DNA of 64,000 nt. Source: Planomonospora sp. ID67723. GTDB lineage: Bacteria > Actinomycetota > Actinomycetes > Streptosporangiales > Streptosporangiaceae. Of the stretch, positions 22,083-26,380 are shown in pieces. The notes under the pieces were generated by a model. It did not search any database and was not told where the DNA came from. It saw nothing but the letters and a program-made list of their open reading frames with translations. Both the position numbers and the translations under genes were made by a program. Location: positions 1 to 64,000 of the forward strand of contig NZ_JABTEZ010000006.1 in assembly GCF_015711605.1 (NCBI RefSeq), written 5' to 3'. Numbering within the stretch: the stretch's first letter is position 1; every line of letters begins with the position of its first letter.

Positions 22083-22105
22083 TTGTCGGACCCCGTCGCT
22101 ACTCT
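22083..22105 (+). promoter_or_regulatory. damage-type promoter of uvrA (RecA_NDp/PafBC motif)
   Basis: TTGTCGGAC (22083-22091), 8 bases, then TACTCT (22100-22105) fits the mycobacterial RecA-independent damage promoter TTGTCRGTG-N8-TAnnnT: 7 of 9 in the first block, with exact spacing and -10 pattern. Transcription would begin near 22112, 39 bases before the uvrA GTG. The remaining 307-base gap (21844-22150) shows no gene and no LexA box. Confidence 0.65.
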
Positions 22106-22150
22106 TCCCGCGACCGCTTCTCAACCTTCTACATCGACGTCGGGACTACT

Positions 22151-24991
22151 GTGGCTGACCGCCTCATCGTGCGTGGCGCACGCGAACACAATCTCAAGGA
22201 CGTCTCGCTGGAGCTGCCGCGAGACTCGCTGATCGTCTTCACCGGCCTGTCCGGGTCCGGCAAGTCCAGCCTGGCCTTCGACACCATCTTCGCCGAGGGC
22301 CAGCGGCGTTACGTCGAGTCCCTCTCGGCGTACGCCAGGCAGTTCCTCGGCCAGATGGACAAGCCCGACGTGGACTTCATCGAGGGACTGTCGCCCGCGG
22401 TGTCGATCGACCAGAAGTCGACCAGCCGCAACCCTCGGTCGACCGTCGGCACGATCACCGAGGTATACGACTACCTGCGCCTGCTGTGGGCGCGCATCGG
22501 CAAGCCGCACTGCCCGCAGTGCGGCCGCGCGATCGCCCGGCAGAGTCCCGAGCAGATCGTGGACCGGGTGATGGAGCTCGAGGAGGGCACCCGCTTCCAG
22601 GTGCTCGCCCCGGTGATCCGCGGCCGCAAGGGTGAATACACCGAGCTGTTCGGGCAACTGCAGGCGAAGGGATACGCCCGCGCCAGGGTCGACGGCACGG
22701 TGATCCGGCTGGACGAGCCGCCGAAGCTGAAGAAGTACGAGAAGCACGACATCGAGGTCATCGTCGACCGGCTCGCCGTCAAGGAGAGCGCACGCAGCCG
22801 CCTCACCGGCTCGGTGGAGACCGCCCTGCAGCTGTCGGGCGGCACGATCACGCTGGAGTTCGTCGATCTCCCCGAGGACGACCCGAACCGCGAGCGCTTC
22901 TACTCCGAGCACCTCTACTGCCCCTACGACGACCTGTCGTTCGAGGAGCTGGAGCCCCGCTCGTTCTCCTTCAACTCGCCGTTCGGCGCCTGCCCGGAGT
23001 GCACGGGTCTGGGCGTGCGGATGGAGGTCGACCCGGAGCTGGTCGTGCCCGACCCGGAGGCGACCCTCGGGGACGGCGCGCTCAGCCCGTGGGCGGGCGG
23101 CCACACCAGCGACTACTTCGAGCGCCTCGTCGAGGCCCTCGGCAAGGCGATCGGCTTCAACCTCGACACCCCGTGGGAGCGGTTGCCGAAGAAGGCGCAG
23201 AAGGCGCTGCTGCACGGCCACGACGAGCAGGTGCACGTCCGCTACAGCAACCGCTACGGCCGCGAGCGCTCCTACTACACCACCTTCGAGGGCGTCATCC
23301 CCTGGGTGCAGCGCCGCCATGCCGAGTCCGAGAGCGACGGCATGCGGGAGAAGTACGAAGGCTACATGCGGGAGATCCCGTGCCCGGCCTGCAAGGGGGC
23401 GAGGCTCAAGCCGGTCTCGCTGGCCGTCACGGTGGACGGGCGCTCCATCGCCGACGTCTCGGCGATGTCGATCGGCGACTGCGCGAGGTTCCTGGCCGAG
23501 CTGCAGCTCTCCGAGCGCGACATGCAGATCGCCGAGCGGGTGGTCAAGGAGATCAACGCCCGGATGGGCTTCCTGCTCGACGTCGGCCTCGACTACCTGA
23601 CCATGGACCGCGCGGCGGGCACGCTCGCCGGCGGCGAGGCCCAGCGCATCCGGCTGGCCACCCAGATCGGCTCGGGCCTGGTCGGCGTGCTCTACGTGCT
23701 GGACGAGCCCTCCATCGGCCTGCACCAGCGTGACAACCAGCGGTTGCTGGAGACCCTGATCCGGCTGCGCGACATGGGCAACACCCTCATCGTGGTCGAG
23801 CACGACGAGGACACCATCGCCGCCGCCGACTGGGTGGTGGACATCGGTCCCGGCGCGGGCGAGCACGGCGGCCAGGTCGTCGTCTCCGGCACGGTTCCCG
23901 AGCTGCTGGCGTGCGAGGAGTCGATCACCGGCGCCTACCTGTCCGGGCGCAAGGCCATCGCGATCCCGGCCGAGCGCCGCCGCCGCGACCGCAAGCGGCA
24001 GATCACCGTGAAGGGCGCGCGCGAGCACAACCTCAAAGGCGTGGACGTGGAGTTCCCGCTCGGGGTGTTCACCGCGGTTACCGGCGTCTCCGGGTCCGGC
24101 AAGTCCACGCTGGTCAACGACATTCTCTACAACGCCCTGGCCAAGGAGCTGAACGGCGCCCGCACGGTCCCCGGCCGGCACTCGCGGGTCAACGGCATGG
24201 ACCTGGTCGACAAGGTCGTGCACGTGGACCAGTCGCCGATCGGCCGCACCCCCCGATCGAACCCGGCGACCTACACTGGCGTCTTCGACAAGGTGCGCGA
24301 CCTGTTCGCCCAGACCACCGAGGCCAAGGTCCGCGGCTACGCCAAGGGCCGTTTCAGCTTCAACGTCAAGGGCGGGCGGTGCGAGGCCTGCTCGGGCGAC
24401 GGCACCATCAAGATCGAGATGAACTTCCTGCCCGACGTGTACGTGCCGTGCGAGGTCTGCCACGGCGCGCGCTACAACCGGGAGACCCTGGAGGTCCACT
24501 ACAAGGGCAAGACGATCTCCGAGGTGCTCGACATGCCGATCGAGGAGGCGCTCGAGTTCTTCGACGCCATCCCGGCGATCAAGCGCTACCTCAAGACGCT
24601 CAACGACGTCGGCCTGGGCTACGTCCGGCTCGGCCAGCCCGCCACCACCCTGTCCGGCGGCGAGGCCCAGCGCGTCAAGCTCGCCTCGGAGCTGCAGCGC
24701 CGCTCCACCGGCCGGACGATCTACGTGCTGGACGAGCCGACCACCGGCCTGCACTTCGAGGACATCCGGCGGTTGCTGGGCGTGCTCGGCAAGCTCGTCG
24801 ACGGCGGGAACACGGTCATCGTGATCGAGCACAACCTCGACGTCATCAAGACCGCCGACTGGATCATCGACATGGGTCCCGAGGGCGGTTCCAAGGGCGG
24901 CACCGTGCTCGCCACCGGCACGCCCGAGGAGGTCGCGCTGGTCGAGGCCAGCCACACCGGCCGCTTCCTGCGCAAGATCCTCGGCAGCTAG
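22151..24991 (+). CDS. uvrA: excinuclease ABC subunit A
   Basis: The 946-residue ATPase finds bulky DNA damage in nucleotide excision repair. It has two ABC modules: Walker [16 protein letters not shown] near residue 32 and [14 protein letters not shown] near 650, with signatures [18 protein letters not shown] and [15 protein letters not shown]. Zinc sites are visible as CPQCGRA, CPAC, and CEACSG with CEVCHG. Length and order match the family. I chose the GTG that places the protein at [17 protein letters not shown], the usual UvrA start; the ribosome site is weak. uvrC follows 1.4 kb downstream, after two Rieske genes. Confidence 0.97.
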
Positions 24992-25177
24992 CGCCGGGCC
25001 GCGTCCCGCTCCGCCGCATCCGGGGCGGGAAGGGCCCGCGGGACGGGCCGGCGGGGGCGGGCCGCGTGGCCCACGTGCCACCGGACGCCCCCGAGCCCGG
25101 GTTCGGGACCTGGGCCCCACGTCAATACCCTTGACCTGAGCCCGGTTTTCACGGGGGACGTTGCGAGAAGGGCCGCA

Positions 25178-25612
25178 ATGAGCAGCAGTGATGGTTCTGC
25201 CATGCCCACGCGCAGGCATGTGATCGGCACAGTCGGGGCCATGGGGGTCGTGGCGTGCGGTGCGGCGCTGACCGGCTGCGGCACCGGGGAACGCGCCCCG
25301 GCCGGGCCGCCGCCGGCGGTCAAGGGCAAGGTCGTGGCGCAGACCGCCGACATCCCGGTGGGCGGCGGCAAGGTGATCCACGAGTGGAAGATCGTGATCA
25401 CCCAGCCGAGTGCCGGGGTGTTCAAGGCGTTCAACGCCAGTTGCCCGCACAAGGGCTGCGCGGTCAGCAGCCCCAGCGAGGGCGTCATGCGCTGCCCCTG
25501 CCACGGCAGCGAGTTCGACGCCGTCTCCGGCAAGTGCCTCAAGGGCCCGGCGCAGGCCCCGCTGGTCGAGTTCGCGCTGAAGGTGGAGGGCGGCGGCATC
25601 GTCATGGTCTGA
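25178..25612 (+). CDS. Rieske [2Fe-2S] protein, Tat-exported lipoprotein
   Basis: The 144-residue protein starts with a twin-arginine signal (TRRHVIGTVGAMG) and a lipobox-like LTGC near residue 31, so it is probably a lipid-anchored extracytoplasmic protein. The Rieske ligands are Cys89-x-His91 in SCPHKGC and Cys106-x2-His109 in RCPCHGSEF. Extra Cys94 and Cys108 can form the stabilising disulfide seen in cytochrome bc-type Rieske domains. No partner oxidase or cytochrome gene lies nearby. A second, similar gene follows. Confidence 0.88.
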   Translation: MSSSDGSAMPTRRHVIGTVGAMGVVACGAALTGCGTGERAPAGPPPAVKGKVVAQTADIPVGGGKVIHEWKIVITQPSAGVFKAFNASCPHKGCAVSSPSEGVMRCPCHGSEFDAVSGKCLKGPAQAPLVEFALKVEGGGIVMV

Positions 25613-25628
25613 GGACCCGGCCCGAGCC

Positions 25629-25666
25629 CGTCCCGGTCCGGCCTGATCGGGCTCCGGTCCGGGACG
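25629..25666 (+). terminator. hairpin between the Rieske genes
   Basis: CGTCCCGG (25629-25636) pairs with CCGGGACG (25659-25666) around a 22-base loop that contains a further short stem. It lies 17 bases after the first Rieske stop, so the second gene may have its own promoter. Confidence 0.4.
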
Positions 25667-25786
25667 CCGGGAGGCGGATGCGCCGAAGGCGTAAATCTTC
25701 ACAGTCTCCTGACGTCGGGTGCGGCATGCTGAACCGTCATCGGGACGCGAGCCGTACCGACAGGAAAGGGACCTGGGAGGGTGACC

Positions 25787-26266
25787 ATGGCAGATACGAC
25801 GACTCGTCGCGCGGTGATGCTGGGAGCCGGGGGCGTGGGGCTCACGGCCGTGCTGACCGCGTGCTCGGGCTACGGCCAGCCGACGGCGGACGAGGCGAGC
25901 GAGCCCGCGGCCTCGTCCGCGCCGACGACCGGCTCGGACTCCGGTTCGGGGTCGGGCTCCGGTGACGGCGGCGCCGCGGCCGAGGCGCTGGCCAAGACGG
26001 GGGACATCCCCGAGGGCGGCGGCAAGGTCTTCAAGGCCGAGAAGGTCGTGGTGACCCAGCCGAAGGCCGGGGAGTTCAAGTGCTTCAGCTCCGTCTGCAC
26101 TCACCAGGGGTGCGACGTCGCCGACGTCGAGGGCGGCACCATCAACTGCCCCTGCCACGGCAGCAAGTTCAACATCGCCGACGGCTCCGTGGCCGACGGC
26201 CCGGCCAACAAGCCCCTTCCGGAGAAGGCCATCAAGGTCGACGGCGAGTCGATCACCCTGGCCTGA
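25787..26266 (+). CDS. second Rieske [2Fe-2S] lipoprotein
   Basis: The 159-residue paralogue has the Tat-like start [15 protein letters not shown], the lipobox LTAC near residue 28, and a Ser/Gly/Asp linker (residues 30-65). Its Rieske domain has Cys104-x-His106 (VCTHQGC) and Cys121-x2-His124 (NCPCHGS). The pattern [11 protein letters not shown] mirrors ADIPVGGGKVI in the first protein, so the pair looks like a duplication. GGGAGG is 6 bases ahead of the ATG; a GTG two codons earlier is possible. The electron partner is unknown. Confidence 0.88.
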
Positions 26267-26276
26267 GCGGCCGTGC

Positions 26277-26313
26277 GCCGTACCGCCCGGGACGAGGGGC
26301 CCGGCGGTACGGC
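26277..26313 (+). terminator. hairpin after second Rieske gene
   Basis: GCCGTACCGCC (26277-26287) pairs perfectly with GGCGGTACGGC (26303-26313). The loop can extend the stem with one bulge. It separates the Rieske gene from the uvrC promoter. Confidence 0.75.
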
Positions 26314-26357
26314 GGACGGCGCGGTCCGCGGGGACGGGGATCCGGAGACAGGGATCC

Positions 26358-26380
26358 CTGTCGGTGCGGGCCGATAGGCT
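26358..26380 (+). promoter_or_regulatory. damage-type promoter of uvrC (RecA_NDp/PafBC motif), leaderless
   Basis: CTGTCGGTG (26358-26366), 8 bases, then TAGGCT (26375-26380) matches TTGTCRGTG-N8-TAnnnT at 8 of 9 positions with exact spacing. The -10 box ends 7 bases before the GTG start, so the mRNA probably begins at the start codon itself. This fits the absence of a Shine-Dalgarno site. Confidence 0.75.

Follow-up and report, generated by a model that had tools for sequence, protein, structure and literature searches.

In the genome of Planomonospora sp. ID67723, the nucleotide excision repair genes uvrA and uvrC lie on one contig, and the question raised by this locus is which DNA-damage regulator acts at their promoters. 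The window, i.e., the whole stretch of DNA that was analysed, comprises positions 1–64000 of contig C6 of the host genome (G000; 8.34 Mb in 9 contigs). An earlier note on this DNA had claimed that both genes are preceded by RecA-NDp promoters, the LexA-independent damage promoters that are activated by PafBC in mycobacteria. As described below, it was concluded that both sites are probably RecA-NDp (PafBC-dependent) promoters, and a probability of about 0.88 was given to this explanation as a whole, judged from the sequence; their mode of action and their inducibility by damage would follow by analogy with mycobacterial work. Published papers are cited here by accession. The promoters and genes in question are as follows.

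22083..22091, + strand: uvrA PafBC (−26) element, TTGTCGGAC (from the sequence; TTGTCGGAC or TTGTCGGTG stands at equal spacing in uvrA orthologues).
22100..22105, + strand: uvrA −10 element, TACTCT (from the sequence and its conserved spacing; N8 after the −26 element, whole site 22083–22105).
22151..24991, + strand: uvrA coding sequence, GTG start (NCBIfam UvrA, 1595.8 bits; translation).
26358..26366, + strand: uvrC PafBC (−26) element, CTGTCGGTG (from the sequence; TGTCRG at the same offset in orthologues, as counted below).
26375..26380, + strand: uvrC −10 element, TAGGCT (from the sequence; TANNNT before the candidate start in orthologues; N8 after the −26 element, whole site 26358–26380).
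26388..28412, + strand: uvrC coding sequence, GTG start, predicted leaderless (NCBIfam UvrC, 1093.3 bits; start placed by comparison).

The consensus of the mycobacterial promoter is given as tTGTCRgtg-8 nt-TannnT (nt, nucleotides; PMC5656591). Direct reading bore out the letters of both sites, their matches to tTGTCRgtg (7/9 at uvrA and 8/9 at uvrC) and the exact N8 spacing, as the earlier note had given them. The TGTCGG core was intact at both genes. No TTGACA-like −35 element was seen by eye at 16–18 nt from either −10 element, and the letters at 17 nt were gcgaaa for uvrA and ggatcc for uvrC. The GTG of uvrA (22151) stands 45 nt past its −10 element, and the GTG of uvrC (26388) stands 7 nt past its own. 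Within the window, sites with at most two mismatches numbered four where 1.19 were expected; a count of four was also reached by 2 of 100 shuffles. Since this excess was only modest, the window by itself was not decisive. A third window site, TTGTCGGACTTTTCAAGTAAAGT at 31986–32008 on the minus strand with two mismatches, lies upstream of what appears by eye to be a small membrane protein gene.

The motif was also counted over the whole host genome, as the earlier note had proposed. The exact pattern TTGTCRGTG-N8-TANNNT was found 7 times and its reversed pattern not at all, and with at most one mismatch there were 43 matches against 6 for the reversed pattern. When the spacer was lengthened by two bases, 12 matches were obtained, against 4 for the reversal of that pattern. 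Outside the window, the −10 element was intact in 28 of the 42 right-spacing matches but in none of the 12 with the longer spacer. Similarly, an open reading frame of at least 100 amino acids began 3–100 nt downstream of 27 of the 42, compared with 1 of the 12. The 14 right-spacing matches without an intact −10 element and the 15 without such a frame are probably chance or coding matches. Replication or repair genes, as recognized by hidden Markov models (HMMs), stood downstream of 11 of the 43 matches (recA, ssb, dnaN, dnaG, ligA, sbcD, a uvrD-type helicase, an AlkZ-like glycosylase, radA, a ResIII/DEAD helicase, and uvrC), a raw tally with no background rate set beside it. The other genes downstream of matches encode a sigma factor with a SnoaL-like domain, two WYL proteins, a HEPN protein, SWIM proteins, an acetyltransferase, a phage-integrase-family protein, a GntR regulator, and unknowns.

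The leaderless placement was also used as a pattern, with ATG or GTG required 5–7 nt downstream. TGTCRG-N10-TANNNT-N5-7-RTG gave 24 matches in the host genome and none when reversed. They include radA, a uvrD-type helicase, dnaG, and uvrC, and they add uvrB, ung, and a DEDD/GIY-YIG nuclease to the list obtained with at most one mismatch. The uvrB site, TTGTCGGCC-N8-TACAGT, carries two mismatches. In three of the 24 cases, only short frames of 16, 30, and 29 codons are opened. An exact motif (L003/L365; G000:C1:2094989-2095011) opens a 16-codon leaderless frame, the stop of which overlaps with the start of an AlkZ-like glycosylase gene; the frame is possibly a coupled leader peptide. Apart from the repair genes, the replication genes dnaN, dnaG, and ligA bear the motif (L012, L023, and L036). 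The motif also precedes the two WYL-domain proteins, L004 (G000:C3:273299) and L039 (G000:C5:821007), where a second regulatory tier is possible.

Orthologues were compared next to the host sites. For uvrC, the named set consisted of the best 80 of 592 relatives and is therefore biased to close relatives; the nearest among the 80, a list from which records of the host genome itself may be missing, was Planomonospora venezuelensis, with 90% identity to the host UvrC over the best segment. TANNNT stood 5–9 nt before the candidate start in 78/80 of these, and TGTCRG was present at the exact offset as well in 58/80. By group, this core was found in 20/36 Streptomyces and Kitasatospora, 9/12 Actinomadura and Actinoallomurus, and 29/32 others. 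When spacings of 4–16 were scanned, the core occurred at the expected spacing in 57/80, at no other spacing, and never on the opposite strand. The wider uvrC set of 70 class members gave lower rates, namely, 57/70 for the leaderless −10 element and 28/70 for the core. Thus, the wider set narrows the reach of the element in the class and leaves the host site untouched, so the odds for the host remain the same. For uvrA, which 236 of the 246 class genomes have, 149 genomes were sampled, namely, 130 chosen among the matches listed, which were ranked by similarity to the query, and the whole of one family with its 19 genomes (f4; f and g labels denote families and genera of the compared class genomes). 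The core was found within 350 nt of uvrA in 76 of the 130, against 0 for the reversed pattern and 1 for the opposite strand, and in 19/19 genomes of f4, giving a total of 95/149. Among the first 70 genomes, scanned at spacings of 4–16, it was seen at the expected spacing only (37/70). For uvrB, 29 loci were used, the 30th (L420) being unplaceable, and 20/29 carried the core, at the expected spacing and at no other from 4 to 16.

These counts bear on the possibility that the sites are sigma promoters of the ordinary leaderless or housekeeping type, in which TGTCGG occurs by chance. Such an explanation would draw on the uvrC −10 element being kept in part without the −26 element, as the differences between 57/70 and 28/70 in the wider set and between 78/80 and 58/80 in the named set indicate. 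However, TGTCRG occupies one spacing in 37/70 uvrA, 57/80 uvrC, and 20/29 uvrB orthologues and no other from 4 to 16, and this explanation was considered hardly credible. Moreover, an origin of the sites by chance was ruled out by the spacing, strand, and reversed-pattern controls. Because the sites are kept in relatives, they very probably belong to the known PafBC control system. The predicted leaderless start of uvrC is kept more widely than the putative PafBC element. The leaderless uvrC mRNA proposed in the earlier note stands as a prediction, supported by the distance of 6–7 nt from the −10 element to the start codon in the named orthologues.

A variant of the core was also observed. TGTCACC recurs with the same spacing at uvrB in genera g5, g7, g8, g10, and g12 of f1, the host's own family, and is perhaps a drifted recognition sequence; in several Streptomyces uvrC promoters, TGTCAC, the same variant, replaces TGTCRG. 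Across the class, the exact motif was found in 183/246 members. In each of the 21 genomes of f18/g29, 9–41 exact matches were counted against 0–1 reversed; from the agreement of its uvrC promoters with those in the named set, this genus is inferred to represent Streptomyces. Two genomes of f19/g47, G174 and G154 (7.5 and 7.7 Mb), carry 119 and 63 exact copies, far above the other g47 genomes compared.

Several points weigh against reading the two sites as PafBC promoters. With two mismatches in its element, uvrA depends on orthologues for its case; the host site is backed by the recurrence of the variant TTGTCGGAC at uvrA in families f13 and f19. In much of f1 the element is missing or degenerate. 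The leaderless −10 element of uvrC was found in 9/21 genomes of this family and the core in 8/21, and the uvrA core was found in 8/22. The f1 genomes without the element imply that uvrA and uvrC can manage without it. The opposite-strand control at uvrA was not entirely empty, with 1/70 at the expected spacing and 1/70 at another. The HMM scans covered genes at right-spacing matches only, and the orthologue counts come from related genomes and are therefore not independent events. In addition, an initial search reported in PMC9380542 did not recover the PafBC motif of M. smegmatis as a conserved element of S. venezuelae. Set against this doubt are the motif counts in f18/g29 and the core at 20/36 Streptomyces and Kitasatospora uvrC genes, S. 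venezuelae itself lying outside the comparison.

One stretch of the host genome carries pafA and, about 4.6 kb farther downstream, the genes for PafB and PafC with the expected domains.

L046:1202-2626: pafA (NCBIfam, 759.8 bits).
L046:7203-8183: PafB (WYL and WCX domains).
L046:8209-9237: PafC (HTH_PafC, 138.3 bits; WYL and WCX domains).

Together with the genome-wide motif test and the orthologue spacing, the position of PafB and PafC near pafA supports the claim of the earlier note that uvrA and uvrC are under PafBC-type control, as far as comparison of sequences can carry it. The HTH family of PafC was matched in 237/246 class members and at multiple places in most large genomes. As this family also matches control genomes, e.g., E. 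coli and B. subtilis, it is unspecific, and the figure of 237/246 is no proof of PafC in those genomes. The host genome alone gave 11 such matches. These matches, together with the two motif-preceded WYL proteins and the citation of ClgR as recognizing this mycobacterial promoter (PMC5656591), would favor real and conserved promoters whose −26 element is read by ClgR or another WYL regulator instead of PafBC. Nevertheless, the PafBC binding motif of M. smegmatis closely resembles RecA-NDp, PafB sits on the −26 element in the structure (PMC8223512 and PMC11804915), and the host encodes PafB and PafC; reading by another regulator was thus judged improbable.

The earlier note had also stated that neither gene has a LexA box. 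For the strict box this held, as no perfect GAACN4GTTC was present in the 64-kb window and hence none at uvrA or uvrC; degenerate boxes, as reported for Streptomyces (PMC9380542), are outside the reach of a strict search. With one mismatch, 23 matches were found in the window against 15.4 expected, and 3 of 100 shuffles gave as many. Of these matches, the one closest to uvrA on its upstream side (21926–21937) lies 225 nt before the start, and its counterpart upstream of uvrC (25936–25947) lies within a Rieske coding region. Two Rieske genes stand between uvrA and uvrC, outside the promoters, and are given for context.

25178..25612, + strand: Rieske [2Fe-2S] protein (Pfam Rieske, 52.2 bits).
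25781..26266, + strand: second Rieske [2Fe-2S] protein (Pfam Rieske, 55.9 bits).

Elsewhere in the host, recA carries a perfect LexA box that begins 58 bp before its PafBC-type motif, and dual control by PafBC and LexA is likely at this gene, judging from the two elements. A lexA gene was not seen by eye beside four of the host's 13 LexA-box matches (L150, L154, L158, and L159), and the presence of lexA in the host is deduced from the perfect box before recA only. Five copies of TCGAACGTTGGTTCG share an identical spacer (G000:C1:97588, C1:1044430, C4:234749, C4:339818, and C6:160227); they resemble a repeated element rather than a set of five LexA boxes. The situation at recA is one reason to consider that uvrA is under both PafBC and LexA through a degenerate SOS box missed by the strict search. 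Further reasons are that Streptomyces SOS boxes are degenerate, with LexA found at S. venezuelae uvrA by chromatin immunoprecipitation sequencing (PMC9380542), and that a review places uvrA and uvrC under both systems in mycobacteria (PMC8223512). On the other hand, the window has no perfect box, its one-mismatch matches are barely above chance, and the one nearest to uvrA is distant. Moreover, a perfect box and the core coexist at uvrA in only 2/149 genomes. Dual control of the host uvrA was therefore regarded as slightly less probable still than reading of the element by another regulator, and control by PafBC remained the preferred explanation.

The compared genomes revealed how the two systems are distributed at uvrA. 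A perfect LexA box preceded uvrA in 19/130 genomes, where the control patterns gave 0/130 and 1/130, and in none of the 19 genomes of f4. The genera with this box were g3, g5, g8, g10, and g12 of f1, g49 of f26, and g73 of f17. Both genomes with the core and the box together belonged to f17/g73, while the other three g73 genomes had the box alone. Neither element was present in 37/130. The exclusion between core and box gave a Fisher p of 4.7e-06 with kinship ignored, and with the looser core TGTCR, coexistence rose from 2 to 5 of 130. The rarity of coexistence suggests an exchange of regulators at uvrA, with the reservation that kinship is uncorrected and the strict box misses degenerate ones. 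Tentatively, and at slightly less than even odds, PafBC may be the regulator that widely, and perhaps ancestrally, governs the damage response of excision repair in the class Actinomycetes, with LexA at uvrA a derived state that replaced it in three or more lineages as counted by family and genus label (several f1 genera, f26/g49, and f17/g73). Genus g73, with both elements in 2/5 genomes and LexA alone in 3/5, may then be transitional.

If the host promoters work as in mycobacteria, the sigma-A holoenzyme would find no consensus −35 element and would be helped by PafBC, itself activated by single-stranded DNA. PafB would read the −26 element (TTGTCGG..), and PafC would bridge to sigma domain 4, in line with the sigma-adaptation mechanism described for PafBC (PMC11804915). 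Transcription would begin some 7 nt beyond the TAnnnT −10 element. For uvrA, the start is expected at about 22112, with a leader of about 40 nt. The uvrC transcript would start at the start codon or within 1–2 nt of it, giving a predicted leaderless mRNA. Together with uvrB and the uvrD-type helicase, uvrA and uvrC would make nucleotide excision repair a PafBC-controlled set in the host.

The element and its targets agree with the known system. RecA-NDp promoters reach beyond mycobacteria, and UvrABC belongs to the PafBC regulon of M. smegmatis, according to a review that also places recA, uvrA, and uvrC under both PafBC and SOS control in mycobacteria (PMC8223512). After treatment with mitomycin C, M. 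tuberculosis is reported to overproduce UvrA and SSB in a RecA-independent manner (PMC8151990). Like the mycobacterial RecA-NDp/PafBC promoters (recA P1 and the regulon), the host sites share the element, the targets recA, uvrA, uvrC, and the UvrABC set, and the location of pafB and pafC near pafA. Unlike them, the host uvrA has the variant TTGTCGGAC, uvrC, uvrB, and radA are among the genes placed for leaderless transcripts, and no strict LexA box is found at uvrA or uvrC. In Streptomyces, the same element outside mycobacteria has been described at recA and at SCO6735, a UV-inducible macrodomain gene of S. coelicolor (PMC5087735), and that paper has among its references a study from 2002 in which S. 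rimosus recA is presented as the new promoter type. The published account, in the part cited here, covers recA and SCO6735 and not uvrA, uvrB, or uvrC. LexA/SOS control of uvrA concerns the same gene and the same physiological trigger, with release from repression in place of activation; its perfect box, seen in the 19/130 genomes above, is absent from the host uvrA. As UvrABC had already been placed in the mycobacterial PafBC regulon, the host sites extend a known system, and the idea is of a familiar kind. No description of a LexA/PafBC exchange at uvrA was found in the literature searched by title or abstract opening, largely outside subscription journals.

These comparisons indicate that the PafBC damage promoter, known mainly from mycobacteria, probably also drives uvrABC in a family distant from them. 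The motif is widespread in the class, including Streptomyces-type genomes, where its conservation had been doubted for one species. Moreover, uvrA offers a testable case of regulator exchange, in which activation by PafBC may stand in one lineage where release from LexA stands in another.

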